Shown: positions 4,038 through 33,908 of the stretch, piece after piece
How the letters are laid out: every line of letters begins with the position of its first letter
How positions within the stretch are numbered: the first letter of the stretch is position 1
NCBI RefSeq assembly: GCF_000003815.2
Contig: NC_049981.1
Coordinates: 12,853,304-12,917,303 of the forward strand
Origin: Branchiostoma floridae
Taxonomy: Eukaryota > Chordata > Leptocardii > Amphioxiformes > Branchiostomatidae
Direction of reading: 5' to 3'
DNA length: 64,000 nucleotides
Translations under genes and position numbers: made by a program
Notes under the pieces: model-generated
Seen by the model: only the letters and a program-made list of their open reading frames with translations
Databases searched by the model: none
What the model was told of the DNA's origin: nothing

Positions 4038-4157
4038 CTAATCACAATAAACAAGTCGGGAAACAGTGTCTTCAACACACTCCAGGAGCTGGGGGTCCCC
4101 AGATCCGACTGGACTGTCCACAGTGTAGAACAACGTGGCGAGAACTGTCTGAACTGT
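4038..4157 (-). CDS. Gene A candidate cytoplasmic-tail exon
   Basis: A CTACAG acceptor is followed in phase 0 by about 39 codons ([18 protein letters not shown]…[14 protein letters not shown]) and a TAG stop. The phase matches the donor of the transmembrane exon. No known domain or polyadenylation signal is obvious. A competing short exon on the same strand near 3715 would also end the frame (NLNLKTRA, stop). Confidence 0.35.
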   Translation of the reverse strand, partial: TVQTVLATLFYTVDSPVGSGDPQLLECVEDTVSRLVYCD

Positions 4158-4194
4158 CTGTAGCCGCCACTCATCAACATATGATGCATGCGAA

Positions 4195-4229
<35 letters not shown>

Positions 4230-7200
4230 GAAACAGTGTGTGTGTGAGTGTGCCTTTGTGCAAGTTCGTGTATATATTTTGTGTTTGAGTGTGTGTGTGC
4301 ATGTGCGTGTGCCTGTGTGTACCCTTGTTGCTGTACAACACTGAACTTCTACTTTTTCAGACATTTGTGTAGCGTATACGTACCATATACAGAAACTGTA
4401 GCAGTGCAGTTGAACTTGCATTCAGATAAGTTTTAATGAAGTTCAATTCAAACCAACCGTTTGTCGACACATACCTCCGTCCTCCGTACCCTTGCACATG
4501 GCTTCTTCTGAATCAAGATGTACGCCGCAGCACCTGCCAGAGCAACAGCTGCAAGCATTCCGATCACGATACCGGCGATGCCTCCTGAACCTATCCCTCC
4601 TCCTATTAGAATGTCAAAAAAGTCTCAAAATGTCAAATGCTTCTCATAAAAGGGGGCGGGCTGGATAAGAAAGTCAATCGCAGTTATGAACCTGGAGGAG
4701 GAGGTATATAAACGTAGCCACGTTTGGGATTGTGTTCTCGCCGCAAAAGCGCCACCTACATCGGCTACATAAAGCGGCGAGAAGTAGTACTCCAGTCAGA
4801 AGCTCTGAGGAAGGTGCCTGAGAGACACCGAAACGTGAGCAAAGTGAGTACAGATTGGTTGAATGTGTTGAATAATCCTCCTATATCCAAGCTTCTCATA
4901 AAAGTGGTCAACGTTTACAATTTTGAAAGAAGTCGTTGATTTTTTCAAACACATTTTAACCTACTGCATGACTAAGTTACAAGCTGTATAGTTTTACCTG
5001 TAGCCATAGGGCGTCCTTGAATAGCTGTAGTCGCCGCAGTGGATGCCATAATGACTGTATTACGTTGCTGAGAGGTGGGTGGCGCATTCGTAGGTGTTGT
5101 GTTAGCTTAAACAACACACCGAACGTTGAGGTAAACATGTGAACATGGCTAAAATGTTTTTAAACTACACCAGACCAAAATACAAGTCCATTCAGTCGTT
5201 CTTGAGCCGACTGACAGACAAATTCTGCTGAAAATATAACATCCATGACATACTGGTACTTTATGGCTGAAAGTGTCTTCGTCGATGAAGGGGGCATCTC
5301 TTATAGAACTTCAGTCAAACATCAATTTTTTCATAGTTACGGAAATGTGAAGCAAGTGAATATGGCTAATATGCATGTACGATTACAACTGGCTGATAAA
5401 ATCTTACTGGTGGTGGTGCTCGGCAGTTGAGTTGTGTTTGATGCTCCAATGGTAACATTAACCGCGGGTGTTGTGGCACTTGTGGCTGGAAAGGGATAAA
5501 AAATGTCTGATCAGTGAAAATCAGACTGAATTGAATGTTATTCTTCCTACTTGAAATATTATATAAACTAATGCACAAAGAGATATTCATCTGCAAGTAG
5601 ACTAGATCTATGTACCGAGTATAAAGTCAACTAAGAATCAAATGTNNNNNNNNNNNNNNNNNNNNNNNNNNNNNNNNNNNNNNNNNNNNNNNNNNNNNNN
5701 NNNNNNNNNNNNNNNNNNNNNNNNNNNNNNNNNNNNNNNNNNNNNGCGGCAGAGCTTGTTCTCCACATGTAGCGTTAATCTCATAACAAAGGGAACGGCA
5801 TGGGAAACTGTAAAGTAGAAAAATAAGACAATGTCGTCTGTCCAAAGTGTGTTCCTCACAGAAGTGGGATAACTATTGTTGCTACGATAAGGTGATACTT
5901 TTAACTTATCAAATTAGACCCTATAGAGATATTATTCGCGAAGTAGGTTTTTGTCTATAAGCAACATAATTTAAAAAGCTTTGAATTTGTTATGCGTCCA
6001 TCCATCCATCCATCCATCCATCCATCCATCCACCCATCCATCCATCCATCCATCCATTCATCCATCCATCCATCCATCCATCCATCCATCCATTCAATTA
6101 TTTTATAGATTCATGTAAAATTTATTAACGTTACTCACATTTGTCCTTCAGGTGTACACTGGGGGAAGAAAATCGAACACAGGACGAAATTCAGGTCCGG
6201 ATGACAGTCACTGATAGGGTCGTATGTTGGGAACACAAACGGGGCTGTCTGAACAGCGAAGTCCTGACTCGGCCACTGGTAGAGGTTCGGGAAGGATGTT
6301 TGGGAATACGACAGGCCCATGCAACGGCTGTACCGGATAGGCTCACATTCTAAAGTAGAAAAACAGGAAACTACACATATATAAAGCTTCAGGAGAAACA
6401 CATCCATCAACTACATCAATAGCTATATCATCTCTGTTCAGATATGTCATCAGGAGAGGCGTATGCTCTATTTGGTTCAGAAAGACTGAATAGAATTACA
6501 AACGAAAGTAAATTTAGAATTAGGCATGAAATATCCCTCTTGAGACACTTAAGTGTAAGTGTAAGAATATCAAGATTGATTCAATGAATATATAAGACAT
6601 TTCTTGTTCGCTGATTGGTTGTGAACCGGTTCAGTCATATTGAATACTGAAGAACACAATGTACTGACAGAAGAAATATTGGTTTGCTAATAGATCATGC
6701 ATTTAATCGTAGCATTCGTCACACATAATGAACATTCAACTGTAGAATGTTTTAAATAACATGGTTCTACTTACGCTTTACTGCAAAACATCCCGGATCG
6801 CTGTTCTTGTCCGGAAATTCGTCACATGAAAATGGTAGACCCAACCCAACCGGTGTGCACCTCACGTTTATTTCCTCACAGACACTCCTGCACAACTGTA
6901 TCTAAAGTCATTTAGAAAAGAATAAAGATCAACATGCATCACAATTACCTGTGATTTCAGTAATGCCAATATGCTTAACAATTGGCTGACAGCAATATAC
7001 TAATACTATAACCCACCTCTGTCAAAATGTAGAAATGCAAAATAAAAAATTTAAAACGCGTATATTTAACAAACTCTCTCATTGGTCGAACCACGAATTG
7101 TAATAGGCAGTCAGAATCGGCCTATATGTGAATGGTTCAATGCATCATGTAGTCTACAACGGGGTGGATAAAAGTTGTGGAAACTGCAAACATGATTCAA

Positions 7201-10200
7201 TGCCCTAAGGTATTCACAATACTTGTTCTTTTACCTGCGCGTTATTTTCACATTCAGGCATGAACATCCTACACAGTAATGCGAAAGAGGCACCCGTGTA
7301 GCAGCTTGTTGAAATGTTGGCTAGAGACAAATAGAATAGGGAGAACTCTCGAGAGGTTAACATCTGCTGGAACGACAGATGTCCGAAGGAGTTCGGGAAT
7401 GATGTAGCGTTGTAGCCGGCGGAGAGTTCGCATGTGCTCCGAAATGCTTGTGGAAGCGGTTCACATGCACCTGTGGAAAAAGAACATAATATCATTAATA
7501 AACTTTAAAATTGATACAGTTGTCGACGAGTAGCTTCCCGACTCCTAGTGTCGTAGTAGTGACAGAAATTATAAATGGTGTCAACTTAGTTGATATTGTA
7601 TTCTACAGACAAATGATGCGTTGCAAGACAGAAAAACGTCTTGCAGCTTGGTGTATTGAAAACCTAATCATAACACATTGAGTGTTGCTTCCGAACAGTT
7701 TTAGAAATCAATTCGGAGGCAACGCTCTGGAAAGTGGAGTGGAAAAGTCGTACTTAAATCGTACAAAAAGAAGTATCTTAATCGATGTGTTCATATTTTC
7801 TCGACCTGACAAAGTTTTGAATTTACCAGGTGTTGGCTCAAGACATTCCTCGTCATCCCTGCTCGGCAGATCTGAGCAGTCTCTTGGCCATTCTTCTCCC
7901 ACAGCTTGCAGTGAGGCTTCACAACTGGTCCTGACTTCATCACACAGTTCTCGGCATGGCGGGACCTGAGCAGCGAATAGAAGAAGACGACAAGGAAGGG
8001 CTGATATTACTTAGGTGCAAATGCAGCACATTTGAGTCCGTCTCTCCCCCCAATAAAAAATGGACTGTCCAATATCAACCTACATATCTCATAGGCATGT
8101 CTCCCAGGCACCTCTATACCAAATTCAAGTCATTTGGTTGTAATACCATGGCACAGGAGGCAAAATATAATTTTTGGTCTTGACATATACATGCACACCC
8201 CTACCAAATTCCAGGTCATTTGGTTCTCTTAGCTTTCTTAAAGCTTACAGTCTCTACTTTGCGTTAAAGGCTATATCAAGTTGTTTGCACCTATAGTATT
8301 TATGATAAAGTAAAAAAAAAACAATATAACGTATATTTTCCCACAATCTTTCGTACTAAGCTCTACAGCACCAGTAAGATTACCATGAACAACAGTACAA
8401 CGGTCATGGGAACATAGAGACGATACAAAGGAGGGAAAAATACCACGGTGTTCCTTAAGGTGAGGTAATGATTAGACATTGTCCTTGGTGCTGAACTGAA
8501 TATAATCGCTATCTTGGAGAAGACAAGATACCAAGATGATCGGACGTATTTAACGGGAACGCTACCCTTGACGTTGATATTCAACAACTCACCTGCTGAT
8601 CAACCTCGCACTTTGGAAACAATGTCGTGCACATGAGGAATGTAAATGACGGATGACATCCCGATGCTTGGTTCAGGACAGATGCAGCTTGGAGAGACAG
8701 TGTCTGTGAGGTGTGGTTTAGGTAGTTCGGTAACGATGTGTTCTCATACGGCAAGAGATGGGTACAAATGTACTCTGCTGAAGGAGTGATAGGTTGGCAT
8801 ACACCTGTAACAAATGAAACAAAAAGATCAAAGTAAATCGAGTTACACGGCCTCTTGATTTCGCCACATGATATTAACGTTTTCGAATAACATATGATAT
8901 ATGTTTCTAATCTTCTCTAAATAACACAATAATAAAGTATAAAAGACGTTCTGAGCAAAGAAGGCAACCACCCTGACAGTCATCATCTACATCTAACTTC
9001 ACCTGCACTTAGAATCTAAATGTCGTATGACATTCTCATAATTTACCACCGTAAAATTAGCGCATTATCAACTATACAAATGAGCTCTTCATTTGCATAC
9101 TTTACACATATCGATATTTCTCGTAACGTTAACAGGCAGACTTATACCGTCTCCATGAAAGAATGAAGATGATAAAAGAATGTTACAATATTAGCTTACC
9201 AAGTGGTTCATTACTAGTACAAGATGCCTCGTCAATGCCATCACTACAGTCTGGAACTCCGTTACAAAACTTGACCAAGGATATGCACTCGCCGCTGAAG
9301 ATGCATTGGACTTGTAATCCTGTACATTGCTCTGTTCGAGAGGTATGGAAAGACGTCAAGAAAAGAAACATTAACATACAGTACATACTCTTTCGTAGTT
9401 TTGAGAAACCGGTCCAAAATTCTGTGAATAAAATATAAATGAATTTTCTACTCACATCCTGCTGAATGCCAATGGACAACGCAAAAAAGTGATCATCTAA
9501 TTGTATCTTGAATGTTCACATTAGTAACCGTTTGTTCACGTCCCCTATAGATTACCTTTTACATACAATTGAATTACAAAACGCCTGTTGACCTTACCTA
9601 ATTGTAATTAAATATAAATAGCTTTGTACGATAGACAGTAGACAGTAGCCTTCCTCTAGAACTGGATAAGATAATGTGTACATTTTCATAAGTTTCGATT
9701 CAACTTTAATCATTGAAGGGGGCGGAAAACAATGTGAAACATCTTTGTGGCTAACATGCACATGTTAGTTTAACAGAAATGACTGTTGTAATCTTACCGG
9801 TGGTGGTGCTTGCCAGTTGAGTTGTTGTGCCCGAAGGTGTTGTAGCTCTTCTCGCTGGAAAGGAATACAGAAAGAAACCAAGCAATGAATATCGCAATTC
9901 AGGTTGAACTACATACATGGTTATATAGGAAAGCACACTCATGAACAAGGGGCCCCGGGCCTGGGTGGCATGTTAGAGTAACAGCAGAAGGATCTTTGCG
10001 ACAAAAACTGGAAAGCAATATATACATAACATTTACAATTGAAAGACAGTTATCAAACGAACCAAAGGATCATCCTAATCAATCTACAGTGAGGTATAGG
10101 AATGATGTTTGGGAATACGACAGGCCCATGCAGGCTCACAGTCTACTAGCATCCCACTGAACGCCGGCGGCCAGAGCTCGTTCCCCGCAAGTAGTGTTGA

Positions 10201-13200
10201 TCTCATTGCAAAACGAGCGGCATGGAAAACTGTAAAATACAACAATTCAATCATTCAATATTTTCTATTTATCAATTTCAATTAAGATAGATGCTGCTTG
10301 CAAAGATAAAGTTATATTGCACAGTTATTCTAACTTTTCCATATCGAACCTTTTAAAGCCGAGTATCTGACAGCAGTTTACTATTGGACTTGTATTAATG
10401 CTTGTAGCCTTTTCCAGATTAAAATTACATATCTGAAGTTTTGTAAGAAACATGTCTGGTACGCAACAGATCATAATGTCCCCCAGTGGAGGTCTTCACG
10501 CTTCGGTGTAAAAATATTTAGATCTATGCGAAGGATCTTGAGATGTTGTGCTACATCTTGAGATGTTTGGACTCTAACTTGAAATGTTTTGAATCAATCT
10601 TGAGATTTTCTAAAAATCTTAAGATTCTTGCAAAAGCCTCAAGATATTTTGAAAGTTGCTTTAAAAATCTTCCATGCCTGGAGATGTCTGGAAAAATCTT
10701 GAGATCATTTACAAAAATCATGAGACTTTCTGAAAAATCTCACGATTGGTTGAAAACATCTCAAGATTGTTTCGAGAGATATCAAGATTGTCTCAAAATA
10801 TATCAAGATTGTCTCAAAATATATCAAGATTGTCTAAAAAAAATCTCAAGATTTTTTTCATTTTTAATAAGGCGTGAAGACCCACCCCCAGTATGATCCG
10901 ATGTATAACTTTTTCTCAAAATATTAGATATGCACCTTGCTGTAAACGGTCAAAAGCATTAGTCCAAAGTGCTCTACTCAGTCCAATAATAGGTGTGAAA
11001 AGCGGTCGTTTTGACTGGTGATCGGCTTGGTGGGGAGCACCTCACAAACCGACCGAGACATACATGTAATGTAAACTAAATCATTTAATGTCAATTACCA
11101 TATTACACAGACAGACGATTTGATTTGAGACAACATAACGACCAACAGGTTTATGTTTTATACACAATAGTATCATATTACAAAAGGTGACTAAAATGAA
11201 AGAACATTAAGTTTGTATCGTTTGAACCATCGTCGTATCTTCCTGTGCTTGGTACATGATATATTGGATAAGTTGAAATTGAAACCGATGCCCTTTTCTT
11301 TAGCTTTAATGTTGAGTAAAGATGATCAATGACTTATGCAGTTATAGTCGACTATTTAATAGCTCCCCAAGATACTCACACTTGCCCATCAGATGTACAC
11401 TGGGGAAAGAAAATCGAACACAGGAAGAAATTCAAGTCCGGATGACAGTCACTGATAGGGTCGTATGTTGGGAACACTGTCGGGGCAGCCAGAAGAGCAT
11501 AGTCCTGATTGGGCCACTGCACGAGGTTCGGGAAGGATGTTTGGGAGTATGAAAGGCCCATGCAACCGCTGTACTGGATAGGCTCACATTCTGATAAATA
11601 AATAAGGCAAATTAGGAAAATACATGAAGTTTAAGGAGATAAACTACATATTATATAATGAATACAACATCTAAAACCCCTGAAAGGCAGTTATATTACT
11701 GTAACATGTGTAGCTTATTAGCACCAGTAACTGTTTAACATGTTAGACTAACACGCATGCGTATATGACGTAGCAAGAGACGCCCAAGAGAGAACCTCCA
11801 CAGACAAAGAAGTCTGTGCAGAGACCTTAAGAATAAACAGCTTGAAAGTGCATACTGGCCTGGTTTCATCCTGATGGATTCCTACCTAGAGGTAGAAGGA
11901 CGGTCCGAGAACAGATAGGACGTGTCACAATTACTAACTCAGAGAATTATTTTAATCATACAATGTACCTACAATGAGGTCTAAAGTCTTATATTCAACC
12001 CACCGTTCGGTACGGAACAGCTATCCTCAGGGAGTTGCGAACAAAGTGAAGCATCCCACTGAACGCCGGCGGCCAGAGCTCGTTCCCCGCATGTAGCGTT
12101 GATCTCATTGCAAAAGGAGCGACATGGGAAACTGTAAAGGACAACAGTTCAATCATTATTTTTGGGTTAAAATATGTTTCTTAGATTTGTTATTAATAGG
12201 ATAGCTACTGTTACCAATTTCATATTGCGCAATTATTACATATCGTACCTGGCAAAGACGACCATCCGGCGACCGGGCAAACGTGGTCGTTCTAGACAGG
12301 TGGTAGGCTCGAGCAACTCACAAAATGACAAAGACAATGGTTTCCAAATCGGTCTAGACTGTTTTAAAGTCAATTATCGTATTGCAAAGACGGGCTGCAA
12401 ATGAGACAGCATAACAGCCGACAGGTTTAATTTACACGGTATATTACACAAAATTATGTTACATATACAGGATGGCTAAGATATGAAAGAGCGTTAAATT
12501 TTACACTGTTGAACCATCATATATTGCGTTGCGTGTCATATACTAGCATTTGATGAGTTGAAATTGAGGCAGAGGTCCTTATTTATACTTATATATGTTG
12601 AATGAAGATAATCAAGTACACAACTCTGTTTACGGTGCGCCATCCAGTTGACTATTTTATGGCTCCAAGCGATACTCACATTTGTCCTTCTGACGTACAC
12701 TGGGGAAAGAAAATTGAACACAGGAAGAAATTCAAGTCCGGATGACAGTCACTGATAGGGTCGTATGTTGGGAACACTGTCGGGGCAGCCAGAAGAGCAT
12801 AGTCCTGATTGGGCCACTGCACGAGGTTCGGGAAGGATGTTTGGGAGTACGACAGGCCCATGCAACGACTGTACCTGATAGATTCGCATCCTTAAGAAAT
12901 CGTAAGAAAAAGAAGAAGAAAATACACATAGATGAAGCTTGGGAAGATATATATGTATCACGTACTACAGTAATAGATACATCATCTGTGCACAAGCAAT
13001 ATGTACACACAGATAACAACAGTGATACTATCACTGCTGCACGGTATGTTTCTTCGATACTTTTTAGTGTTTATGAATGCTTTCATTATCTGATTGAATT
13101 TAGTACACATATCTATATAATTCAGCATGGACATTTATATCTTAAAAGAAGACATGACAATTTCTAGCAACTATATTGATAATTTTCTGTAACTTAATAG

Positions 13201-14153
13201 ACTCTAAAAATACACCTCTCCGATTTACGCTGTTTCAACATTTCTGCTTCACGTTTCCAGACTAAACATTAATAAGTGTCATGGAGCATTTTATATTAAA
13301 GTCATGATGTGCGCACGTAATATCATAGATTAATGAAACATGGCAGATGGACGTACCTTGAGCGTAACAGGACGTTACGTCTGAAATGTAAGGTACAAAT
13401 AGCACAAATCATAATGTATAACTTTGACACCATGATTATAAAGTTTATTGTAATTACATATGCCGGAGGGTTATTTTTTTATTACAAAGTACAAGTTGTC
13501 ATATATACTCGTTATAATGAAAAAATACAATCATAATATGAACTACCTCCAGTTTTACAGTACATTCTAAAATACACGTATACATGATACTGGACTAGTT
13601 TCGTTGGGTCTGACTGCTTCCTTCGAGACAGTTAATCAACAATTATATTGTATGATAAGTACTGTACCATTGATACGCTCATAATAACAACACATTGAGG
13701 ATTGTAAACCATAATGATGATGACAATGACTAGTTTCTTGATTGTTCACAAGACACGTATCTTGCAGCTCAAGGCTAATAGAAAGTGCACATTGTTTTGC
13801 TCGACTTAACATATCAGTGCAAGTTTACCTTACACTGGAATGTATGCCATGAAATTCAATCTCGTGCAGATACACTCCTATCTTTCACCCAAATACTGCT
13901 ACTGTTTATATCCCATGAGTATATCTTACGTATACATGTATAGCGAATATACATATGCAAAAACATATTATGTATATGATCTTTCCATCCTCCCTCAAGT
14001 CATCATGCAACGCTAAAAATGTTTGATTGACTTGGATACCAGATTATCATGAGTTTTGCTTATGAATAGAGACAGAGCAGTAAGATTTGAGAAATATTTA
14101 CCTGCTAATATTAGAGCAGTAGTGATGACCGCGGTTATTATACACAGCTTCAT
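4038..14153 (-). CDS. Gene A: membrane-anchored multi-Frizzled-CRD / LDLa protein (spliced, minus strand)
   Basis: Reconstructed by reading exons with GT..AG borders and consistent phases. Order from the N-terminus: signal peptide (14153-14102), 8-residue linker (13380-13357), Fz CRD 1 (12890-12680 + 12131-12004), Fz CRD 2, damaged (11590-11380 + 10229-about 10147), Thr-rich linker (9854-9798), LDLa (9331-9200), Fz CRD 3 (8804-8593 + 7965-7827), Fz CRD 4 (7470-7235 + 6901-6775), Fz CRD 5 (6349-6139 + 5807-gap), Thr-rich stalk (5485-5408, 5105-4998), transmembrane segment and basic stop-transfer (4602-4475), and a tentative tail exon (4157-4038). About 800 aa. Fz CRDs are ten-cysteine domains that in Frizzleds, SFRPs and corin bind lipidated Wnts or act in protein recognition; LDLa modules bind calcium. 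The product should be a type I surface protein. It is the inverted paralog of Gene B at 20555. The CRD 2 exon is broken by a deletion and may truncate the protein; a 100-bp gap hides part of CRD 5. Confidence 0.8.
4194..4229. repeat. (GATT)n microsatellite
   Basis: About nine perfect GATT units. The Ser-Ile-Asn-Gln repeats in one antisense frame are an artefact of it. Confidence 0.9.
4475..4602 (-). CDS. Gene A transmembrane exon
   Basis: 128-nt exon from a TAATAG acceptor to a GTATGT donor. It encodes a Gly-rich lead, a hydrophobic helix ([18 protein letters not shown]) and a basic stop-transfer ([12 protein letters not shown]), so Gene A is a single-pass membrane protein. It ends in phase 0, and at least one further exon must lie downstream. 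Confidence 0.85.
4690..4910 (+). mobile_element. Possible Penelope-type retroelement tail in a Gene A intron
   Basis: Contains a short frame with [15 protein letters not shown] and the sequence CACCGAAACGT. From memory, GAGG.GACACCGAAACGT-like endings are common at the 3' ends of Penelope-like elements. No GIY-YIG or RT domain is visible, so the assignment is weak. Confidence 0.3.
4998..5485 (-). CDS. Gene A Thr/Ser-rich stalk (two exons)
   Basis: Exons 5485-5408 ([19 protein letters not shown]) and 5105-4998 ([14 protein letters not shown]), both phase 1-1. They are low-complexity with N-x-T sequons, as in a mucin-like membrane-proximal stalk just before the transmembrane exon. Confidence 0.75.
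5646..5745. other. Assembly gap (100 N)
   Basis: Exactly 100 N, the customary length for a gap of unknown size. It removes the end of a Gene A coding exon and possibly further CRD exons. Confidence 0.99.
5746..6349 (-). CDS. Gene A Fz CRD 5, incomplete because of an assembly gap
   Basis: The first-half exon 6349-6139 is complete ([25 protein letters not shown]). The second-half exon starts at 5807 with [14 protein letters not shown] and runs into the run of N at 5745. The remaining 60 or so nt, with the last two cysteines, are unseen. The intron holds an (ATCC)n microsatellite. Confidence 0.8.
5996..6093. repeat. (ATCC)n microsatellite
   Basis: About 24 tetranucleotide units with two or three interruptions, inside the intron of Gene A CRD 5. 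Confidence 0.95.
6775..7470 (-). CDS. Gene A Fz CRD 4 (two exons)
   Basis: Exons 7470-7235 and 6901-6775. Starts with a C-E-P-L pattern and includes [15 protein letters not shown], then CRMFMPEC and [12 protein letters not shown]. The acceptor at 6902-6903 is chosen because Gene B uses the equivalent site (ATACAG start); an alternative AG lies 6 nt further in. Paralog of Gene B CRD 2. Confidence 0.85.
7827..8804 (-). CDS. Gene A Fz CRD 3 (two exons)
   Basis: Exons 8804-8593 and 7965-7827. Ten cysteines, with [11 protein letters not shown] in the FPN position and [12 protein letters not shown]. The second-half exon is almost identical at the DNA level to Gene B exon 22842-22983, while the first half has clearly more differences, as expected from patchy gene conversion. 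The intron between them contains a dispersed repeat at about 8085-8230. Confidence 0.9.
8085..8230. repeat. Dispersed repeat, same family as 46070-46560
   Basis: Two partial units of the pattern ACCAAATTCAAGTCATTTGGTT followed by a stretch ending in GCAAAATATAAT. The same module recurs in tandem at 46070-46560. It lies in the intron of Gene A CRD 3, or just upstream of it, and has no ORF. Confidence 0.6.
9200..9331 (-). CDS. Gene A LDLa repeat
   Basis: A 132-nt symmetrical phase 1-1 exon holding one whole LDL-receptor class A module: six cysteines and the calcium-site pattern [13 protein letters not shown]. It corresponds to the first LDLa exon of Gene B (22063-22191), which shares FSGECIS and [10 protein letters not shown]. 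In Gene A it follows two CRDs; in Gene B it precedes all of them. Confidence 0.9.
9798..9854 (-). CDS. Gene A Thr-rich linker exon
   Basis: A 57-nt phase 1-1 exon with TTTCCAG acceptor and GTAAGA donor, encoding [19 protein letters not shown]. It is low-complexity and probably O-glycosylated. A similar exon lies at 5408-5485. Confidence 0.7.
10147..11590 (-). pseudogene. Gene A Fz CRD 2, second-half exon damaged
   Basis: The first-half exon (11590-11380) is intact. The second-half exon starts normally at 10229 but after GVQWDAS it departs from its paralogs and reaches a stop (TGA, around 10135). The sequence that follows (10140 down to about 10090) is the start of a different first-half CRD exon lacking its intron, so a deletion appears to have fused two CRD exons. 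The last two cysteines are missing. A weak donor at 10146-10145 would keep phase 1 and skip the stop, giving a shortened CRD. Either a truncating lesion or a tolerated shortened domain. Confidence 0.65.
10478..10894. mobile_element. MITE-like element with internal CTTGAGAT repeats
   Basis: The left end carries GGTCTTCACG (10491-10500) and the right end its complement CGTGAAGACC (10873-10882), each flanked by a CCCCCA or CCCCCAG-type stretch that extends the inverted repeat to about 20 bp. The roughly 370-bp core is an imperfect array of the self-complementary motif ATCTTGAGAT and its degenerate forms spaced by 20-25 bp. The open frame across it is an artefact. It lies in a Gene A intron. Confidence 0.65.
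12004..12890 (-). CDS. Gene A Fz CRD 1 (two exons)
   Basis: Exons 12890-12680 and 12131-12004 split the domain at the usual phase-2 point. The first half carries C-x-x-I-x-Y-S-R-C, then [10 protein letters not shown], the Phe-Pro-Asn motif typical of Fz CRDs, then [12 protein letters not shown] and FPQC. The second half carries LPC-type [14 protein letters not shown] and two more cysteines, giving the ten expected. The sequence is nearly the same as CRD 2 and CRD 5 here and CRDs 3 and 7 of Gene B, pointing to exon duplication or homogenisation. Confidence 0.85.
13357..13380 (-). CDS. Gene A micro-exon (8 residues)
   Basis: A 24-nt exon between a TTTCAG acceptor and a GTACGT donor encodes DVTSCYAQ in phase 1-1. 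Gene B has the matching exon at 21490-21528 (DVKSCSAQG plus Thr). It is very short, so its support is conservation between the paralogs. Confidence 0.6.
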
Positions 14154-19477: not shown

Positions 19478-19480
<3 letters not shown>

Positions 19481-23600: not shown

Positions 23601-26600
23601 GTGTCTTTTTCTATGCAGCATAATTTACTAACTCATACATTAGGCTGTTGAAAAATCGCTGTCAGCCAAGTGTAAGTATATAGAGGTATTGTATAAAGTT
23701 GCAGGTAATCTATAGAGAGCGTCAATATCAGTAGGTCGATATATGACATATACTGTTTGTTCTTCGGCTGCAGATACAGTTTTGCAGGAGCGCCTGTGAA
23801 GAGATCAACACAAGCTGCTCTCCGGTTGGACTAGGTTTACCATTTTCATGTGACGTATTTCCCAGCCGGGATGACGATCCAACTTGCTTTTCGGTCTATC
23901 AGCAACCAGGTAAAAATATGTCAATATGTGACAAACCATTTCACAACTTCATAAAGAAATGCTACCGTACTTTAAACCTTAATATAAAGTACATTGTAAG
24001 CAGTTGTTTTACATATATTACCTTAGTCTTGAATATTCAGCCATCTCTGTAGGCTGATTTTGTTGTCTTCCTTTACTATAGAATGTGAACCCATTCGGTA
24101 CAGCCGTTGCATGGGTCTGTCGTACTCCCAAACATCCTTCCCGAACCTCTACCTGTGGCCGAATCAGGACTTTGCTCTTCAGACGGCCCCGTTTGTGTTC
24201 CCAACATACGATGCTATCAGTGACTGTCATCCGGACCTGAATTTCTTCTTGTGTTCACTTTTATTTCCCCAGTGTACACCTGAAGGGCAAATGTGAGTAT
24301 GGTGGGAAGTTGACGAGTACACATACATTTCATTTGATTGGGTGATGGAATGCAAACAGAGCTGTGTTATCTAATGATAGTGTATAACTCATACCCAACT
24401 CATCCAGGCAAAAATAAATGCTCAGTACCATCCTATATCGCTCACAGGAATAGCAATCGGGTAATTGTTTGTTTTGGACAATATAACATCTACTATTTCA
24501 ATCATTTATTTTACAGACTCCCGTGCAGCTCCTTATGTTATGAGGTTAACGCTACATGCGGAGAACGAGCTCTGGCCGCCGGCATTGGATGGGATGCTTC
24601 GATCTGCCCTCGTCTCAGTGACAACAACTGCTCTTTACCCATCGGTGAGTTAAAATAATGACTTATCCATGCCATTTTGGGCATAGTTATGATGTTTTTG
24701 TTGTTGTTACAGTATTAATATCATTTCATCGTCAGATATTTCATTTGTGTATCATTTCATGTACATTTTATACAGCCCCGTTTTTTGCTATAATATCCTG
24801 TTTATCTAAAAGTTCAACCACTCTAATCTTCCCGCTACAGATAAAGGTGAAAATCACTTTCATTCACATGGTCATGCAATATATTGTTTCTACTTTTATG
24901 AATGAATTAAGATGACTCTTTTCACAGCACCCTCAGATTGCCAACCAATACCGTTCGACCGTTGCCAAAACATGTCCTACTCCGACACGTCCTTCCCGAA
25001 CTGGCTCGGCTGGCAGGGACCAGAAGACGCCGTGGCAAATGCGACATTGATATTTGGAGCTCTGGACCAGATTTCTGACTGCCACAAGGACCTGGGCATC
25101 TTCCTGTGCTCATTGTACTTTCCATCGTGCACACTGGCAACTGGAGTACAGTAAGTCTTGCGTTCAAGTGGAGTTCTGGAGCGACAATAATCTATTTTGC
25201 ATACATTTGCATTTACATTTATCACAAGGTCTTTGCAAGAATAGAAATACGGCGATTTTAGCCTTCTTAATGTTCCTGCTTGCCTTTTCTGGTAACCTAA
25301 GATAGCCTTTCGATCGATATAATCTAGGTGCAAATGTCTGTTCCATTCACGCATTGATAAATCGACTTTTCTACTTGTGTGTTCATGCAATGGCCAAATT
25401 GTAAGACACCTATTTCCCGCCGTTTACAGCTTTCCTTGTCGGTCTTTCTGTGATGAGATTAATAACGCATGCGCAGTGCCCGCCCTTTCCGCTGGCATTC
25501 CGTGGGACACCTCTGGCTGCACCACGCTGCCGGCAAGTAGCTATGGGGAGGACTGCATCGCTCCTGAAGGTATCGTTTTCATTTTGTTACCCCGGGAAGG
25601 ATGGTCCCCTCCTGACGGAGTATTGTAGTTAGGGTTATGCTGTTCGCAGCTGTATCTCACGATCCATTTGCTTGTTCTTTTTAAGCCGTAGTTGTTTGTA
25701 TAAGAAATGTAATATTTCAGTCCTCCTCTAAGTCCCCCTCTATTTTCATGTTCAATATTAACCTGAACGTTTGATGCCTTCAACAGTTAAATCGTAATTT
25801 CTAGGCTACAAGGAATCATTTGCTGTACATTGTCACGGGGTGCATTTCCATTGTATCTTGTGGTATTTCAATCGAAGCAGAAAGCTGTTGTAAGTTGAGT
25901 TGTGTTGTGTTGTTACCTTCCCTACAGCGACGTGCGATGACTGGCCGTACGAATGTTACGGATCTCCCGGAAGCTGTGTGGGTGCTTGGCAGTTCTGTGA
26001 TGGAGACAGCTTTTGTCCATTCAATGACGACGAGAGTATCTGCAGCAGCTGTAAGTAGCATTTAAATAAAACAATGTTGAAGTTGCAGGTATTCTGTTAT
26101 ATGACGCACATTCAACAAGAAGTCATAAAAACTTCAACCAGGAACACATACCTTCGCCAAATAACCATGCCTTTATCCAAGAATTTAAGGTCACATTCAT
26201 GTATTACTAAAGAGTATACCTGCCCCAAAAGTAAACGACTGTATGGACGTGTGTTTATACATGTAGCTGGTAGAAATTCCATTTAGTCCATCCCAATGTT
26301 GTCGAAGGCAATGAATATGAGACGCATCGTTTAAGTTATATCGGAGGAAGCTTGTGGTTTTTGTCTTAACCCCAAATCAGTGATATCAACATTAATAATA
26401 GTGATGACTCTTCATTGTAGAAAGTGCTATATAAGACATATTCGATTGGTAACAGACCTAATTGTAAGGTGTTTACGTTTGCTATGCTGTGGTACAATGC
26501 AAAAGGAAATCATTATTTTCAGATACGTGCATGCCCATGGAGCTTGAGTTCTGCCAGGATGAAGTTCCCTACAACAGAACGACGTTTCCAAACTACCTTG

Positions 26601-29600
26601 GGCAGCAGAATTTGACGATGATTGAGGAATCCGACATACATGCAAATGTGTCTCTTCTAGCCGACACGGCGTGCCACGAATACGTGAAATTCCTCTACTG
26701 CCATATGGTATGATTACCTCTATCATATTCATTAAGCATCTGGAATGAACTCTTAACCACTACAAATGTTCATCAGTTGAAAATACTTACAAACTTCAAA
26801 TTCATTTTTAACATATTCCGTCACCAGTATAGCTTGTCCTTTTTATCGACATCACAAAGTCAGAGCAGACTAGAATACCAAATACATTACCCCTAGTACC
26901 TTTGGTTGTTGTGCGTGTATTAATGTATTTTATGTAGACCACTGGAAGAATAGCTGGCAACATAATGTTGTAATAGCTAAAAGTGGATCTGAATAAAGTC
27001 AAGTCAAGTCAAGTAATATGTCTCAGCTACTTTTATAATTTCACCGGTTGTATATATACATATTACGGATTTTAACACACAAATATCATCTGTTATCACA
27101 GGCGGTTCCTGAGTGCGTCAGTGATGGTGAACGAGGCCGACCCCTATGCCGTACTCTGTGTGAAGAGGTCAGACAAACCTGCTCCACGGAGATACAGGAG
27201 ATTGGGTTCGAGTTTACAAAGAGCACCTGTGACGGCATCTTTCCGGATTCTGTTCAGAAGGATACATGCAAGCTGATAAAAGGTGTTGTGGTATTGGTCT
27301 GACTACTGAATGGTATTTTCATGCAAATTGATATATTTGATAAATTCGCAGATTAAACAAGTAGATTCAGAATGTATTCATGTTCGGACCATCTACGAAT
27401 TCAACAGCTTAGCATTACGATATAATAAAATGAAACTAGTACCACATTCTCCATGTTCAAGTCGGCCAATATCAACCCAGTAGAGTTGCCAAAGGATGTG
27501 TGTTTTGTCGTTAATAGAATAGTTGGTGTAGTAGATGAAGTTGTCTAATTTCTCATTCCCGTTGCAGAATTTGACTGCTCATTCGATGTGGACTCGTGTG
27601 GGTGGCTGGCCGGCAACTACAGTCAGGTTGAGATGCTGCAGCCTAGAAACAACTCTAAATTTGGTCAGTGCTTCAATAGAATTTATCTAGTACTATGCAC
27701 TGTGATGATAACTTCATGCGGTGCACTTACACCCCCCTCACATTAGGCGAAAATCGATCGGAAGACTAGTCTACGAGCTCTAAATGACATTTTCGTGAGA
27801 AAGACGTCCGGTGTTCTCACGATCATCTTGCGATTTTTAGGGATCGTCGGCGATTTTCAGGGGTCGTACGATGGTCGCGGTGCAGCAGAACATGTTATTA
27901 ACATATGCGACAAATCGCAGGAGATCTCTGAGATCGCAGAGCTCGTTACCGAGTCAAAGATCGTGCGCGCAAATCGTGCGTACCTCGCAATGGTATCGGT
28001 CAATGGTCTTGCGTCAATCCAACGATTGAAGGCCGATAGGCGAGCACAGACATAGTTATTAATTATCGAGCGCAAATCGGATGGCGAACGCCCGTCAGTC
28101 GGGCGACGTTCGGGTGACGTTCGCCCGACTTACATATTATGGCCCCTGTGGTAGTATGTAGGCTGGCTTTTTGACAAACTTTCCTTTCTTGTAGCATTTT
28201 TATTTTGCCCGCGCATTCCATTCATTGCTTTAAAAGATTCCGACAACAAAATAAGCAACATTTATTGATCTCTTGCCTTTTTTGAGGGACGTTTTGTGTT
28301 CATTATCATAGATTTATTCACTGTCGATCGCACGAGCCTCGCTTATATGTGAGGGGGACAGTTTTGGGGCGAAAAATACGAAAGACCATCTAAGATCTTA
28401 AAATCAGCCGACCTTCCTGCGATCGCGAAGTACGTCCGAAGATCGTATATAATGTGAGGGGGGTATAAGAAATAAGATTGACAGACGTAAGATGAAAGTT
28501 GATACGCTGTCATATACATGTCTGAAAAACTCTACTAATCTATGAATCAACGATCAAATTGCCATCTTTCAACACGTTACATCTAACAGCTGTGGATACC
28601 CCCATGTATTACAAAACAACTTGCCGCACAAGGAAATAGATGCAATGTCCTGAACGTCGACTACTCCAAATTTTTATCATTTCTCTCATTCGAATGTTGT
28701 ATTCCAATAGGCATGTATCTATCTTTGGATGGAGTCTCGTCCAAACCAACAAGCCCGACCATGTACACGGACAACAAGTGCCTAAAGTTGGACTATTGGC
28801 TGAGAGGTGACGGCAGTAAGTTAACCGTGTACGTGTCTGGACCGGGAAATAGTATCTTCTTCACGTGGCGACAATCTGATGATGATGATGATGAAGATGG
28901 AATGGGGTGGTCATCACTCAGTCTGAACATCAACAAAGGATGGCCTTGGTTCAAGGTGATCTAGATGTTTTACTTTAATAAAAGGTATATAGGAGAAAAA
29001 CATCCAATAGTTGCGCACTGTTTAAAATTTGGCCAAAACGAAGATGCTTAATATGTATCTTGTATCGAAATCTATTAATCATGGCTGATAAACGTTGATA
29101 TTGCTTCTACTTTATATGTTCAAACAGCAGCTAACTCATGAACACAATTATATTCATGGTTTCTTGACGTAACTATGTTCTTGTTTCGCTATCATCAACA
29201 GTTATCAATGTAATAAGCGTCTAGGTTTCATGGCAATCCCGGCAACAAAATGAAAGTTGAAGTTTATTCATTGCAGGTGTCTTTGGACGCGTACGTGTTC
29301 GATGGCGGGGAAGTGGGGGTTGATGATGTCACCCTGTCGGACGGCTCGTGTGAAGGACAAGGTAAAAGAAAGTTACATTGAAGTTACAATCAGCAGAAGT
29401 ACATGATGAGAATTCTCTCTCCCTCCCTCTCTCTCTCCTCTCTCTCTCTCCCTCTAACGAAAATTCTATTTCAGTTTCTCCAGGATGTGAGGAAATAGAG
29501 TTTGTGCGTTGCTTGGCTATGCCCTACAACTTCACCACCTACCCGAATCTGCTCGGCTGGGACAAAGATCTCGCCCTTTCCATCGCCCCCGAAACCTTCC

Positions 29601-32600
29601 AGGCGTTTGACCAGATCGCAGACTGCCATCCTGACTTAGAGTTTTACCTCTGCTCGGTGATCTTCCCCCAGTGTACGCCAACAGGAACCAGGTAGAGTAT
29701 TTTGAATTTATCAAACTAATTTTCAAATGTTCTCTCTGTGCGTTAATTTCTATGGTATGTACATGTAATAGGGTTAATGACTGAGGTGTGTACAACATGT
29801 CCAGTTCCTATAACTACTAAGTTATCCTATAACTACTACCATATAAACCACTAAGTGGTTGAAGCAAACGAGGTGGTTTATGAGGTGTAAAGGCACCGAC
29901 AACAAACTGTTTGACCATAATAAGAGACTTACTGCTAATCGCTTACTTTTTTCCCGCCCCATAAGCCACTGAGTGGCCGAGGCGAACGATGTGGTTCATG
30001 AGCTGCAATGACACAGGCAATGTATGTTTTGACCATCACATGAGACATATTGCTAATCACGTACCCTTTCGTGATTTGCTAGGCTTCCATGCCGCTCGTT
30101 CTGTGAGAACGTGACCGCTGCTTGCGCAGCCAGAGCAAATGCCATCGGCCTCAGATGGGATCCAAATGGCTGTCTCGGTTTTCCCATAGCCGATGGACTG
30201 GACTGTGTTGCTCCGATCGCGAAAGCAGGTTAGCTTGTCTCGTCTTTGTTTCATATGCCTGTGTTCTAAGTTATCATCCCTTTTTTCAGTCCCCTGGTCG
30301 TCTGTTTACTTTCTTTATTTTTCTTTGACATATATCTGTGCATACCCAGCGTCTTCTACTGTCTATATACAAAAAGGAAATAATTCCCTGAGTCTGTAGA
30401 CAAAGGGACTTGCTACGAGTGACATAAAATTGTCCATAATGCAACCTAATGCAAACCACACCATCTCAAATTGTAGATTTATTCAGTTAAGCGTACACTT
30501 CGATAGCCTTTTTTAGTTGATTACAGTTCATGTGGCATTGCGTTTACCTTGTCGAATGTAATTCTCGTATCTTACTGTTCCAATTACCTTTCAACTTTAG
30601 GTTGTGAAGCCATCCAGTACAGCGGTTGCATGGGCCTGTCGTACTCCCAAACATCCTTCCCGAACCTCGTCCTGTGGCCGAGTCAGGACTTTGCTCTTCA
30701 GACGGCCCCGTTTGTGTTCCCAACATACGATCCTATCAGTGACTGTCATCCGGACCTGAATGTCTTCTTGTGTTCTATTTTGTTTCCCCAGTGCACGTCT
30801 GAAGGACAAATGTGAGTATTATAGCGAATATAACATTACATGTATAATTGATTTCAATGACACCATGCCAACATGGGTTGTTTGTTGTTTCTAACACAGA
30901 TGCATTAACTAACAAATCTGAATTGCACCTGGCATATCTAACACATTTCATTTACCTCAAGTCACAATCATCACATACCAGCTTCGTATGTCACATTATT
31001 ATTACATTCCTCAAGAAGGTTATGTTCTTGGCAAAACTTGTAACGGTTTTGGACGTATATGTGCGCATAACTCGAGAAGCCGTTGATGATTTCGGCTCAA
31101 TACTTTCGCTGGTTAACCAGTGGTCACTACGGAGGATAGTACTCAGGCTAATTTGGTATGTGGTTTGGTGTCAGAAATACAAAAGCCAAGCTCGATAATG
31201 AGCATCGTAGCTGCTTCCTACTGCAGATGCGGATACGAAACACCTACAGATTATACAAATGAATACCTGATAAGAAGATATGACGTGAAGATGATACTTA
31301 ACGTTATACAATTATAGTATCATAAAGGATGATATTGGTTGGTAAGGTATGAGGTCGAGGAACTCTAGTTGTAATATCATTCCCATCACTTTAAAGTATG
31401 GAAAGCACAATATCTAAAAGACGACATTATCTTAATATGTCTATTTTTCAGACTACCATGTCGCTCATTTTGTTACGAGATAAATGAGACATGTGGGGAA
31501 CGAGCTCTGGCCCTGGGTCTGGATTGGCAGGACTCCATTTGTCCAACTCTAACTGAGGAAGAGTGCCTTCTGCCGGATGGTAGGGTTAATCTCTAATATA
31601 CTCACACTCAAATGTCTATCAGTAATGTTTGATTATAATGTAATATTTCGCCCTCGCGTCCTTATTGCTTAGTCCTTGTGGGACAATGTGTGATATTTGA
31701 TCGATATAAGCTATTTAGACGGATTGCGTAATGTGTGTGTTATATCTTCAACCACCTGCTTACTTTCCATGTTTCTATCTTGACATAAATTTGGACTTTA
31801 CTTCAGTCTAGCTGTCAACGAACTGTCAAATTGCGCAATTCTCTGAGACTCTATACGAATTGACTTGCCAAGAGTGTCATCAGTTAATGTTTTGCGAGAG
31901 ACAGTCATACTTGTAGAACAATTTAGATTCAGATCATTAATAAGTAGCGTTTAAAGTACTTGGCAAAGTAAAAGAAAAAATACGCCATTATAGTTATGAA
32001 GTTTCCTGAAGTTCGTTTTGAATGAAATATTTCAGTCAAATATTTCATTTATATATCAATTCATGTAGTGCTGCATGCTTTGCTGTCCAGTTTTTGTTAT
32101 GATATCTTGTTTACATACATTGTAGAAGTTCAATAGGTGGTACGATATTCGCATTTGTCCTGTTTGTCCTTGAGTACTTTGAATGGCATTCCCAATGTCT
32201 TTATTTCCTTTCTTTGTATTGATCTCACGTTACTCCTCTAGACGATATAATATGTACTTTGATTTGAATAACATAAATTGACTTTAGACTTTCTACATAG
32301 CAATGGGCTTTTCTATTCGCAGATAGATTTGCCTTTGAAAATATAATGTAATATTTCAAATATAAAGGCTAGTTAAAACTCAAGTACGATATACAATACT
32401 AGTCATTTTTGTACCCCTTCTCCACGGTGTCAAAAACTACAACTCCGGCAGACACAACCAGTGGAACTACAACTCCAGCAGACACAACCAGTGGAACTAC
32501 AACTCCAGCAGACACAACCAGCGGAACTACAACTCCAGCAGACACAACCAGCGGAACTACAACTCCAGCAGACACAACCAGCGGAACTACAACTCCAGCA

Positions 32601-33908
32601 GACACAACCAGCGGAACTACAACTCCAGCAGACACAACCAACCTTCGTCCTTCAACACCGACACCTACCCCTCGCACAGGTGACAGCATATGATCACTGG
32701 CGTAAAAACATAGACGAGACAGGACAACAAAAAAAGAAAAGCAAGCAGATACCAAGGGATGATAACTTGTAAAATATTAACGTTGTCTTGACAATCTAGT
32801 CAATGTTTCACCATACATATGACAAGACATATGTTGAAAAAATGCTATGATAGAAAATTCTCACTAATTATGCAAATGTAACACCTTTTGCATAATTCAT
32901 ATTTAATTTTGTACATTTTGGTCTAAGCTACCTGCTACCAAAAACCATGGAAATCCGTTATCCCTACCTTGAGTAAGTGTGATGCACAGAAAAACGTAAG
33001 TATGCAGTGTGTTGAGCAGAAAAATAGGTGTTGCACATTGTTGCTACCGGTCACGGTAGGTCCAGGTCATTGTCCTGGAGAAGGAAGAGATTCCATTCCG
33101 GGCACAGACAAATGGGGTGTTTATATGGTGATCCGTGATTGAAAAAAAACTGCAGAGAAAGTTAGGGGACGTCTTTATTGATCAATAATTGAATAATGAA
33201 TCTTCTCGTGTCTGTCTACAGAGTGCCCCTATGGATACAGGCGACACAGGGGTGGCTGCTACCGCTTCTGGGGCGGGAAAAACGCTAAGAGCTACAGTGA
33301 TGCCAGGAGGGTCTGTCAGGAGAACGGAGGGGACATCTACATGTGGAGGAGCGCTGCTGCTGTCGCTAGACTCAAGAGGAAACTGATCCGGTAAGAAACT
33401 TTACTGTTTTATAAAAGCTACCTGTTTGGAAAAATAATACCCCATGACTTTATGAGCTGATTGTACCACGAACATACATCTTGACATCAATTAGCTTGGC
33501 TACACTAGAAAGTGACATTGCAAAGTAACTATTGAAACACCACATATAGTGTGTGAGTGAGTCTGCAATGAATTCAGTTTTTGGGGTGCTATAGTAAACC
33601 CGGAACGAGTGATCCTGTATTAAATTGTACACAAGTATACAGCGGCATGGCTTGTGCATGTCTGTTTCAGCAATCGCGCCCCAAGTCTGTGGGTAGGCCT
33701 GAGTGATGAGGACCTGGAGGAAACCTTCCTGTGGGCTGACGGCCCAGCTTTGGACGGGAACGACTTCACCGACTGGTCTCCCAACCAACCGCGCAACACG
33801 GCTGAGAAGGACTGCGTCGTCGCACGGAGGGTCCACCGGTACCGCTGGAAGGTCGTGCCCTGCAGCTACAGGAGGGCCTTCATCTGTCAATCACCAGGGG
33901 CTCCGTGA
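20555..33908 (+). CDS. Gene B: secreted 7x Fz CRD / LDLa / MAM / C-type lectin protein (spliced)
   Basis: About 24 coding exons and roughly 1,300 aa, read from splice sites with nearly continuous phase. Order: signal peptide (20555-20606), linker (21490-21528), LDLa 1 (22063-22191), Fz 1 (22422-22633, 22842-22983), Fz 2 (23315-23547, 23774-23909), Fz 3 (24082-24292, 24517-24644), Fz 4 (24928-25150, 25430-25569), LDLa 2 (25928-26050), Fz 5 (26523-26707, 27102-27282), MAM (27568-27663, 28711-28955, 29277-29361), Fz 6 (29475-29691, 30083-30228), Fz 7 (30601-30811, 31452-31579), Thr-rich repeat (about 32403-32679), C-type lectin (33222-33390, 33671-33908, stop TGA). No transmembrane helix is visible, so it should be secreted. 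Every CRD keeps ten cysteines. It is the inverted paralog of Gene A; the block LDLa-Fz-Fz-Fz is shared, and the rest differs by exon gain or loss. I know no standard family with this full domain order. Confidence 0.85.
20795..20870 (+). mobile_element. SINE conserved-domain fragment in Gene B intron 1
   Basis: CCTTTGGGACAGGTGCTTTA and CACGACTTTTCTCACCTCAC, then TCCACCTAGGTGTAACTG, the same conserved block seen on the minus strand at 16361-16420. The tRNA-like head upstream is too decayed to identify. Confidence 0.6.
21490..21528 (+). CDS. Gene B linker exon
   Basis: Encodes [13 protein letters not shown] between a TTTCAG acceptor and GTACGT donor. An earlier donor (after CAAG at 21513) would give the same 24-nt length as in Gene A, so 12 nt may be alternatively spliced. 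Confidence 0.6.
22063..22191 (+). CDS. Gene B LDLa repeat 1
   Basis: Symmetrical phase 1-1 exon of 43 codons with six cysteines and the calcium-site pattern [13 protein letters not shown]. Paralog of Gene A exon 9200-9331. Confidence 0.92.
22422..22983 (+). CDS. Gene B Fz CRD 1 (two exons)
   Basis: Exons 22422-22633 and 22842-22983. Ten cysteines, [11 protein letters not shown] in the FPN position, [25 protein letters not shown]. The second exon differs from the Gene A counterpart (7965-7827) at very few positions apart from its last codons, much less than the first exon does. Confidence 0.92.
23315..23909 (+). CDS. Gene B Fz CRD 2 (two exons)
   Basis: Exons 23315-23547 and 23774-23909. [23 protein letters not shown] and [12 protein letters not shown], with ten cysteines. 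Counterpart of Gene A CRD 4. Confidence 0.92.
24082..24644 (+). CDS. Gene B Fz CRD 3 (two exons)
   Basis: Exons 24082-24292 and 24517-24644. [30 protein letters not shown] and [16 protein letters not shown]. Very close to Gene A CRD 5 and to CRD 7 of this gene. Confidence 0.92.
24928..25569 (+). CDS. Gene B Fz CRD 4 (two exons)
   Basis: Exons 24928-25150 and 25430-25569. [48 protein letters not shown]. Ten cysteines. It has no close counterpart in the visible part of Gene A, but could be missing there or hidden by the gap. Confidence 0.92.
25928..26050 (+). CDS. Gene B LDLa repeat 2
   Basis: Phase 1-1 exon, 41 codons, six cysteines ([15 protein letters not shown] … [14 protein letters not shown]). 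The calcium-binding acids are only partly canonical, with SFCPFNDDE in place of DCSDGSDE. Confidence 0.8.
26523..27282 (+). CDS. Gene B Fz CRD 5 (two exons)
   Basis: Exons 26523-26707 and 27102-27282. [36 protein letters not shown]. The most divergent CRD of the gene; the exon junction is shifted towards the N-terminus compared with the other CRDs, but all ten cysteines are present. Confidence 0.88.
27568..29361 (+). CDS. Gene B MAM domain (three exons)
   Basis: Exons 27568-27663, 28711-28955 and 29277-29361. The start [13 protein letters not shown] matches the MAM entry motif (F-x-C-x-F-E-x-x-x-C-x-W); then [11 protein letters not shown], and the end [17 protein letters not shown] is the usual GeiavDDi..s.g.C close. 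A run of five Asp and nearby acids lies in the middle exon. MAM domains mediate adhesion and oligomerisation. The first intron hosts a MITE-like insertion. Confidence 0.88.
27731..28463. mobile_element. CGATCG-rich MITE-like element in the MAM intron
   Basis: Both ends read ACCCCCCTCACATTA inward (27731-27745 and, in reverse complement, about 28450-28464). The interior is unusually rich in GATCG/CGATC words and short palindromes, with GTCGGGCGACGTTCGGGTGA-type self-complementary stretches near 28100, unlike the AT-rich surroundings. The 86-codon open frame inside is not supported as a gene. A similar word style recurs near 44930. Confidence 0.65.
29475..30228 (+). CDS. Gene B Fz CRD 6 (two exons)
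   Basis: Exons 29475-29691 and 30083-30228. [15 protein letters not shown] (Y in place of F before PN), [26 protein letters not shown]. Ten cysteines. A TC-rich tract sits just before the first exon. Confidence 0.9.
30601..31579 (+). CDS. Gene B Fz CRD 7 (two exons)
   Basis: Exons 30601-30811 and 31452-31579. [44 protein letters not shown]. Close to CRD 3 and to Gene A CRDs 1, 2 and 5. Confidence 0.92.
32403..32679 (+). CDS. Gene B Thr-rich tandem-repeat exon
   Basis: Seven 30-bp units (about 32434-32640) encode [10 protein letters not shown] repeats, then [12 protein letters not shown] and a GTGACA donor in phase 1 that joins the lectin exon in frame. The 5' border is uncertain: the only nearby AG (32401-32402) gives this frame in phase 0, whereas the preceding exon ends in phase 1. 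Either an unseen small exon intervenes or a non-canonical acceptor is used. All forward frames stay open because 30 is a multiple of three. Confidence 0.6.
33222..33908 (+). CDS. Gene B C-type lectin domain and stop (two exons)
   Basis: Exons 33222-33390 and 33671-33908. [17 protein letters not shown], then a long helix region, [27 protein letters not shown] and FICQ before the TGA, with the conserved cysteine pairs. The calcium/sugar motifs are not canonical: QPR stands at the EPN/QPD position, and there is no WND before the [10 protein letters not shown] end. Carbohydrate binding by the usual calcium mechanism is therefore doubtful; protein binding is as likely. Confidence 0.9.

Follow-up and report, generated by a model that had tools for sequence, protein, structure and literature searches.

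The closest described relatives of the genes analyzed here combine Frizzled-type cysteine-rich domains (CRDs) with other extracellular modules. The vertebrate proteins Corin and MFRP join such CRDs with LDLa, and chimeric genes are known to form by exon shuffling of phase 1-1 modules. PMC6747125 describes two CRDs in Corin and regards the Wnt role of CRD proteins beyond Frizzled, sFRP, and ROR as largely unknown or incompletely proven. The window analyzed here is a 64-kb stretch of Branchiostoma floridae DNA (NC_049981.1, positions 12,853,304 to 12,917,303; contig 3 of the 431 contigs in the 513-Mb genome that we searched) with a head-to-head pair of multi-CRD genes, gene A on the minus strand and gene B on the plus strand. 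Like Corin and MFRP, A and B join LDLa and Frizzled-type CRDs in a predicted extracellular or membrane protein, but they carry three to seven CRDs, a MAM domain, a mucin-like linker, and a lectin end or a type I anchor. We scanned 19 pieces, a subset of the exons with 15 from the A/B pair, against Pfam, and no protease, CUB, or sFRP-like NTR domain was found among them. A and B resemble the Frizzled receptors and sFRPs in their Pfam Fz CRDs and differ from them in the repetition of these CRDs; no Frizzled seven-transmembrane (7TM) match was found in the hydrophobic exon of A or in the scanned pieces, the 7TM profile not having been searched over the locus. B is similar to exon-shuffled chimeric genes in its symmetric modules and in a tail apparently derived from another chromosome-size contig, but differs in that its leader seems to come from an inverted duplication beside the donor gene.

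We consider it fairly probable that gene B is a mosaic of three sources, consisting of an inverted A-type leader, a body of the type found in paralogs C (contig 3, 11.820-11.836 Mb, 1 Mb from the window) and D (contig 217, 39.8-43.4 kb), and a lectin tail shared with genes on contig 4. The start of B (promoter side, untranslated region (UTR) exons, signal peptide, and micro-exon) would be an inverted copy of the start of A, its LDLa/CRD/MAM body would have been copied within the multi-CRD family, from the C/D branch, and a contig-4 gene carrying VWD/EGF-like exons would have supplied the lectin end from its own 3' end; in gene A, the same leader would stand before an older body that ends in a membrane anchor. 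The phase-1 introns that flank each whole module in the gene models would allow such joins to keep the frame, and later exchange of single exons by gene conversion, between A and B and among the CRDs within B, may have kept some CRD exons alike as the introns drifted. The order and direction of these events are what we infer from the sequences, as are expression and ligand.

Self-BLASTN of the window revealed an inverted collinear diagonal between 5.7-15.6 kb and 19.6-24.6 kb, which takes in the 5' UTR exon, the signal-peptide exon, a 24-nt micro-exon, LDLa, and CRD1-3. The leader is represented by the blocks 15231-15615 versus 19905-19568 (71%, E 2e-47), 13938-14428 versus 20764-20308 (68%, E 5e-42), and 13353-13434 versus 21517-21435, and the body by 9175-9340 versus 22216-22054, 8587-8822 versus 22639-22404 (89%), 7831-7979 versus 22976-22828 (98.7%), 7244-7489 versus 23538-23296, 6813-6903 versus 23862-23772, and 6132-6357 versus 24299-24074 (91%). 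These blocks bear out the mirrored arrangement around 14-20 kb that a preliminary description of this DNA had proposed, and the splice models, whose exon boundaries carry AG and GT in both genes, agree with its claim of common exons in equal phases: the signal-peptide exon (coding part 52 nt), micro-exon, LDLa, CRD1, CRD2, and first CRD3 half-exons have identical phases in A and B. In both models, the modules begin and end in phase 1 and each CRD consists of two exons, with the split in phase 0 in CRD1 and CRD2 and in phase 2 in CRD3. An assembly or haplotype artefact, which the 100-N gap within A might bring to mind, is very improbable; the A-B blocks listed differ by 9-32% outside one 149-bp tract, and the two genes share a 34-Mb contig and differ in their tails. 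We rejected it on the A-B divergence.

The A leader block, delimited by self-BLASTN, flank test, and splice models (13332-15615, minus strand), comprises promoter-side DNA, UTR exon 1 with a putative conserved donor at its end (15365), exon 2 (14212-14102) with a start codon at 14153 and a signal-peptide-like stretch, and the micro-exon (13380-13357). Its mirror in B (19568-21553, plus strand) contains UTR exon 1, likewise with a putative conserved donor at its end (19781), exon 2 (20495-20606) with a start codon at 20555 and a signal-peptide-like stretch, and the micro-exon (21490-21513). The matching 5' UTR exons noticed earlier are thus present at the sequence level, where both are defined by conservation alone. 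In the non-coding DNA, 812 of 2114 bp align between the A and B leaders (80.2%; Jukes-Cantor distance (JC) 0.23), and 108 of 2213 bp align in the body, that is, in the LDLa-CRD introns. The body of A aligns similarly little with C (133 of 2213 bp) and D (112 of 2213 bp), mostly at exon edges. The body of B aligns with C over 897 of 1247 bp (78.3%, JC 0.257) and with D over 617 of 1247 bp (78.4%, JC 0.254). Upstream of LDLa, C and D align with each other over 2115 of 2590 non-coding bp (JC 0.186), and 0 of 1834 bp of the non-coding B leader align with the upstream DNA of C or D.

A flank test, in which each flank alignment was compared with 30 plain shuffles, gave z of 6.6 to 41 for the six A-B leader flanks. 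In the A-B body, z was -1.0 to 2.0 in 10 of the 12 flanks, and the two bordering the CRD2 intron reached 4.1 and 5.7; between A and C, 11 of 12 flanks had z of 2.5 or less and one had 3.8. Values above 5 were obtained in 10 of 14 B-C flanks and in 10 of 14 B-D flanks. The A/B leader (query 13938-14685) occurs in the genome in A, in B, and in one 101-bp match on contig C146 (all 3 candidates scored), and the C/D upstream region occurs in C and D only, besides a dispersed repeat in D (best 40 of 2480 candidates scored). In a scan for the micro-exon over the 13.7 kb preceding C and the 4.6 kb preceding D, the best hits had 14 of 28 matches, which is the chance level in A and B; a scan for signal-peptide exons over the 4.6 kb preceding D and the 6 kb preceding C turned up a single weak candidate in each. 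The alignments, the flank test, and the genome searches together point to an A-type leader joined to a C/D-type body in B, with a putative switch at about 21.55-22.05 kb (21554-22052, plus strand), where the A-type homology stops and the C/D-type homology starts.

The third part of B is a segment (33189-35208, plus strand) that, including its 3' flank, is common to B and the contig-4 lectin genes. On contig 4, its matches are the 3' ends of three or more loci (18.94, 18.95, and 19.09 Mb), and a further match lies on contig 360 (best 40 of 1177 candidates scored). Read by eye, the upstream exons of the contig-4 loci are VWD-like (in two of the three loci), Ig-like, and EGF-like, followed by the same lectin exons; the upstream exons so named are not seen in B. 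The lectin exons of B are 91.9, 89.4, and 89.4% identical to those of the three loci (L029, L030, and L031, respectively), in the same phase. C and D have no lectin exons within the stretches fetched, which argues for a transfer from contig 4 to B. A dispersed repeat, with about 30 copies among the matches listed (81-84% identical to the one here), lies at 32820-32974 between the linker of B and the lectin segment.

The preliminary description had taken the pair for one gene duplicated head to head, the copies of which then diverged. This holds for the leader, including its non-coding DNA, but seems less apt for the body, in which A and B share nearly exons only and B goes with C/D. Since good non-coding matches are confined to the leader, the B body groups with C/D, and the lectin tail groups with the contig-4 genes, simple divergence of one duplicated gene appears only partly right. 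A whole-gene inverted duplication is nevertheless a possible, though not a probable, origin of the pair: the regulatory leader would have stayed alike, the body introns would have drifted, and B would later have given rise to C and D, which acquired a different leader. A and B indeed have the same exon order and phases, their synonymous divergence (dS) in the body (0.34) is near that of the B-C core (0.26), the tree of CRD1 first halves sets B, C, and D apart from A (89/91), and the exon lengths of B, C, and D agree against A in four exons, the C and D exons having been picked with B as a guide. Such a duplication would, however, predict similar alignability of the introns, and the observed values are 5% in the body versus 38% in the leader; moreover, the aligned leader DNA takes in intron sides and not the promoter alone.

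Several observations weigh against a mosaic origin of B. The leader alignment hugs the exons, as constraint would give, and constraint on a regulatory leader after whole-gene duplication is possible. The loss of homology between B and C/D upstream of LDLa could stem from insertions; the intron after LDLa is 2 kb in C and 0.23 kb in B. The leader coding sites are not younger, with a dS of 0.47 in the signal peptide (14.3 synonymous sites) and 0.23 in the micro-exon (5 sites) versus 0.34 in the A-B body. The four-gene informative sites (12 AB|CD, 10 AC|BD, and 10 AD|BC) leave the order of A, B, C, and D unsettled. All four genes resemble one another in the second half of CRD1 (90.8-97.8%), which leaves A-B conversion at this exon unproven, and the heterogeneity of A-B synonymous differences disappears (p 0.16) once the CRD2 second half is omitted. 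We rejected the quartet site patterns as a way to order the four genes on account of the 12/10/10 counts. The mean exon identities in the common core are 85.8% for A-B (a value that takes in the signal peptide and micro-exon, which C and D lack), 85.9% for A-C, 83.6% for A-D, 89.8% for B-C, 87.7% for B-D, and 88.4% for C-D.

Gene B was modeled with 24 coding exons (3882 nt, 1293 codons plus stop, in frame) in the order LDLa, CRD1-4, LDLa2, CRD5, MAM (three exons), CRD6, CRD7, Thr-rich linker, and C-type lectin (two exons). The 22 exons up to the linker translate as one open frame, and the two lectin exons continue by phase. In the splice model, seven exons encode LDLa, CRD1, CRD2, and CRD3 (22063-24644, plus strand); CRD4, LDLa2, CRD5, MAM (27568-29361), CRD6, and CRD7 follow at 24928-31579, placed by profiles and splice model. 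They are followed by the Thr-rich repeat linker exon (32452-32679), with a tentative acceptor choice, and the lectin exons (33222-33390 and 33671-33908), with the stop at 33908. The CRDs match Pfam Fz with E of 9e-22 to 2e-8; CRD3, CRD4, and CRD5 of B score 68-78 bits against PF01392 (cut-off 32.1), and their ten cysteines were read by eye. The joined MAM matches Pfam with 34 bits (cut-off 26.4), and the separate MAM exons have no Pfam match. LDLa2, with no Pfam match above the cut-off, was recognized by eye from its cysteine/acidic pattern and by its conservation in C. The second lectin exon matches Lectin_C (E 6.7e-11, 43.3 bits, cut-off 22.6), and the first alone has no Pfam match above the cut-off. 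We infer that the product of B is secreted and has seven CRDs and a lectin-like end.

The region 25-34 kb might instead hold one or more separate genes, with B being short and the lectin not its end, an unlikely arrangement that would be compatible with the other explanations. B is a model built from the sequence, the lectin segment would be a late arrival located after a dispersed repeat, and the linker match in C comes after CRD3 and not CRD7. That B is one gene is supported, however, by paralog C, where the modules from LDLa to CRD7 follow one another in the same order, with extra CRDs; the exon joins keep phase and use AG and GT, and A and B hold the only leader copies in the genome. The linker is located after CRD7 in B and its match after CRD3 in both C and D, which speaks for rearrangement. 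Calcium-dependent sugar-binding C-type lectins have an EPN or QPD motif plus a WND motif. B reads NQPRN and WKV, and its three contig-4 relatives read NQPRN or DQPHN with WKV; such binding by the B lectin and its relatives is therefore doubtful, as the usual motifs are missing.

Gene A, on the minus strand, contains an LDLa exon (9200-9331; Pfam, splice model), a CRD1 first-half exon (8593-8804; local profile, splice model), a CRD1 second-half exon (7827-7965) that lies nearly entirely within the 98.7% tract 7831-7979, CRD2 (6775-7470; exons 7470-7235 and 6901-6775 in the splice model), and CRD3 (5746-6349), the first half of which spans 6349-6139 and the second half of which is cut by the 100-N gap (5646-5745). 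The tail (4490-5485) consists of Thr/Ser-rich linkers (5485-5408 and 5105-4998) and a predicted transmembrane exon (4602-4490; last donor uncertain, with one or more final exons expected below 4490), whose best 19-residue mean hydropathy is 2.41. This is the one hydrophobic exon that the model splices to A in phase, and it is of the single-pass type. The product, whose continuous frame is interrupted by the CRD3 gap, is predicted from hydropathy to be a single-pass type I membrane glycoprotein with LDLa and three or four Frizzled-type CRDs. The contrast of membrane-anchored and lectin-tailed secreted ends drawn earlier is accordingly predicted by the transmembrane exon of A and by the Lectin_C match and stop of B. 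The gene content had been incomplete in the preliminary description, which overlooked the second LDLa, the MAM, and several CRDs of B, as well as the extra CRD exons of A at 10.1-12.9 kb, one of them broken. These extra exons lie between the micro-exon and LDLa (9798-12890) and include CRD0a (12890-12680 and 12131-12004), which is intact and can be spliced in frame, CRD0b (first half 11590-11380), whose broken, truncated second half near 10139-10228 is followed by a stop, and a linker exon (9854-9798). A debris exon at 10091-10255 (minus strand) consists of a CRD second half fused to a CRD first-half fragment, then a stop.

It is improbable that the body of A, rather than that of B, was replaced, in the sense that an older family member overwrote the LDLa-CRD part of A in an intact inverted pair. 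A is odd in its introns and in the second half of CRD2 (dS 1.07-1.67 to B, C, and D), and carries the extra and broken CRD exons; C and D, however, must then have switched leader too. A genome search with the tail of A gave, among the best 40 of 1914 candidates, no further copy except for a dispersed repeat at 4650-4889, which adjoins the transmembrane exon and occurs at several genome sites as opposite-strand pairs. Profiles of the transmembrane exon gave no match in the C and D stretches. Hydrophobic open stretches exist in these regions (38832 in D; 11820500 and 11819934 in C) and were not tied to genes.

In the reading of B as a mosaic, exchange of single exons would account for the uneven similarity of the CRDs. 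The second half of CRD1 reaches 97.8% identity between A and B, and neither of the introns beside it can be aligned. A-B synonymous differences range by exon from 3/31 to 18/27 sites (chi-square 30.2, p 3.5e-5, seven exons), and total differences also vary by exon (p 1.8e-10, six exons). Within B, the first half of CRD7 is 91.0% identical to that of B CRD3 and 82.0% to that of C CRD7, and the CRD4-CRD6 exons are 91.5-97.3% identical between B and C. The B-C dS of the CRD7 first half is 0.60, versus 0.06-0.33 in the other 11 CRD4-CRD7 exons and 0-0.49 in the seven core exons. Some exons therefore look homogenized by gene conversion, between A and B and among the CRDs of B, the synonymous part of the A-B signal leaning on one exon. 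The dN/dS values of 0.23-0.44 and the open frames argue that the proteins of these genes are made.

The spacer between the leaders (15616-19567) matches dispersed repeats elsewhere in the genome over about two thirds of its length. The start sites of a bidirectional promoter pair lie within about 1 kb of each other. The A and B leader blocks are 3.95 kb apart, or about 1.3 kb after discounting the dispersed repeats, and this spacing is not that of a compact bidirectional promoter today. Joint expression of A and B is plausible, given the copied leader.

The Fz profile gave at least 145 matches genome-wide (best 150 of 230 candidates scored), which are exon pieces and include true Frizzled genes. 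By hand count, the window holds 11 of the 145, 4 on the minus strand and 7 on the plus strand. Among the matches listed, and likewise by hand count, the largest arrays each keep to a single strand (23 of 23 on contig 4 at 10.2 Mb, 22 of 22 on contig 3 at 2.0 Mb, 9 of 9 on contig 290, and 8 of 8 on contig 3 at 11.8 Mb). Mixed orientation is not unique to the window, since the matches near 7.2 Mb of contig 13 and near 15.65 Mb of contig 6, three at each place among those listed, likewise fall on both strands. On contig 4, the loci L009-L015 (C4:10.19-10.23 Mb) show repeated CRD-LDLa2-CRD-MAM-CRD units, apparently a large tandem multi-CRD array. In a tree of 41 CRD first halves, 15 of them chosen from this array, CRD1 of A, B, C, and D grouped by position (94/92), the CRD2 copies fell together (97/84), and CRD5 and CRD6 of B were tied to contig-4 relatives, with many forks unresolved. 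The nearest solved CRD structures are those of Frizzled-2 and Frizzled-7.

Beside the pair, the plus-strand region 47391-52213 contains a tyrosine-kinase exon (231 bits), a kringle (102 bits), and a galactose-binding-like piece barely above the cut-off, with EGF- and Ig-like matches below it; this may be one receptor kinase gene of unusual make-up. A tandem array of approximately 98-bp units, 93-98% alike, occupies 62575-63311.

The most likely role of A and B, as a best guess, is extracellular recognition or adhesion and not that of a Wnt-signalling receptor. We found no description of multi-CRD lectin proteins in lancelets in titles and abstracts, with subscription papers and genome annotations outside the search. 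According to PMC12373286, the C-type lectin domain is over-represented among the dispensable genes of the lancelet pangenome, and a study cited there credits B. floridae with the most novel domain combinations among eukaryotes. We put forward, as a speculative and rather unlikely extension, that two half-CRD exon classes (junction phase 0 in CRD1, 2, and 5; phase 2 in CRD0a, 3, 4, 6, and 7) are exchanged by conversion and run from a few copyable, invertible leader cassettes onto new bodies and tails. They might form a combinatorial kit for a germline repertoire of recognition proteins, both membrane-bound and secreted, that changes quickly, in logic like the expanded invertebrate immune receptors. 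The locus suggests that the Frizzled-CRD family is large in this chordate outgroup. If the mosaic origin of B is true, it would show at base-pair resolution a route by which a gene assembles its promoter, signal peptide, body, and tail from different sources with the frame kept, and it would illustrate clearly how novel recognition proteins, on the cell surface or secreted, arise.

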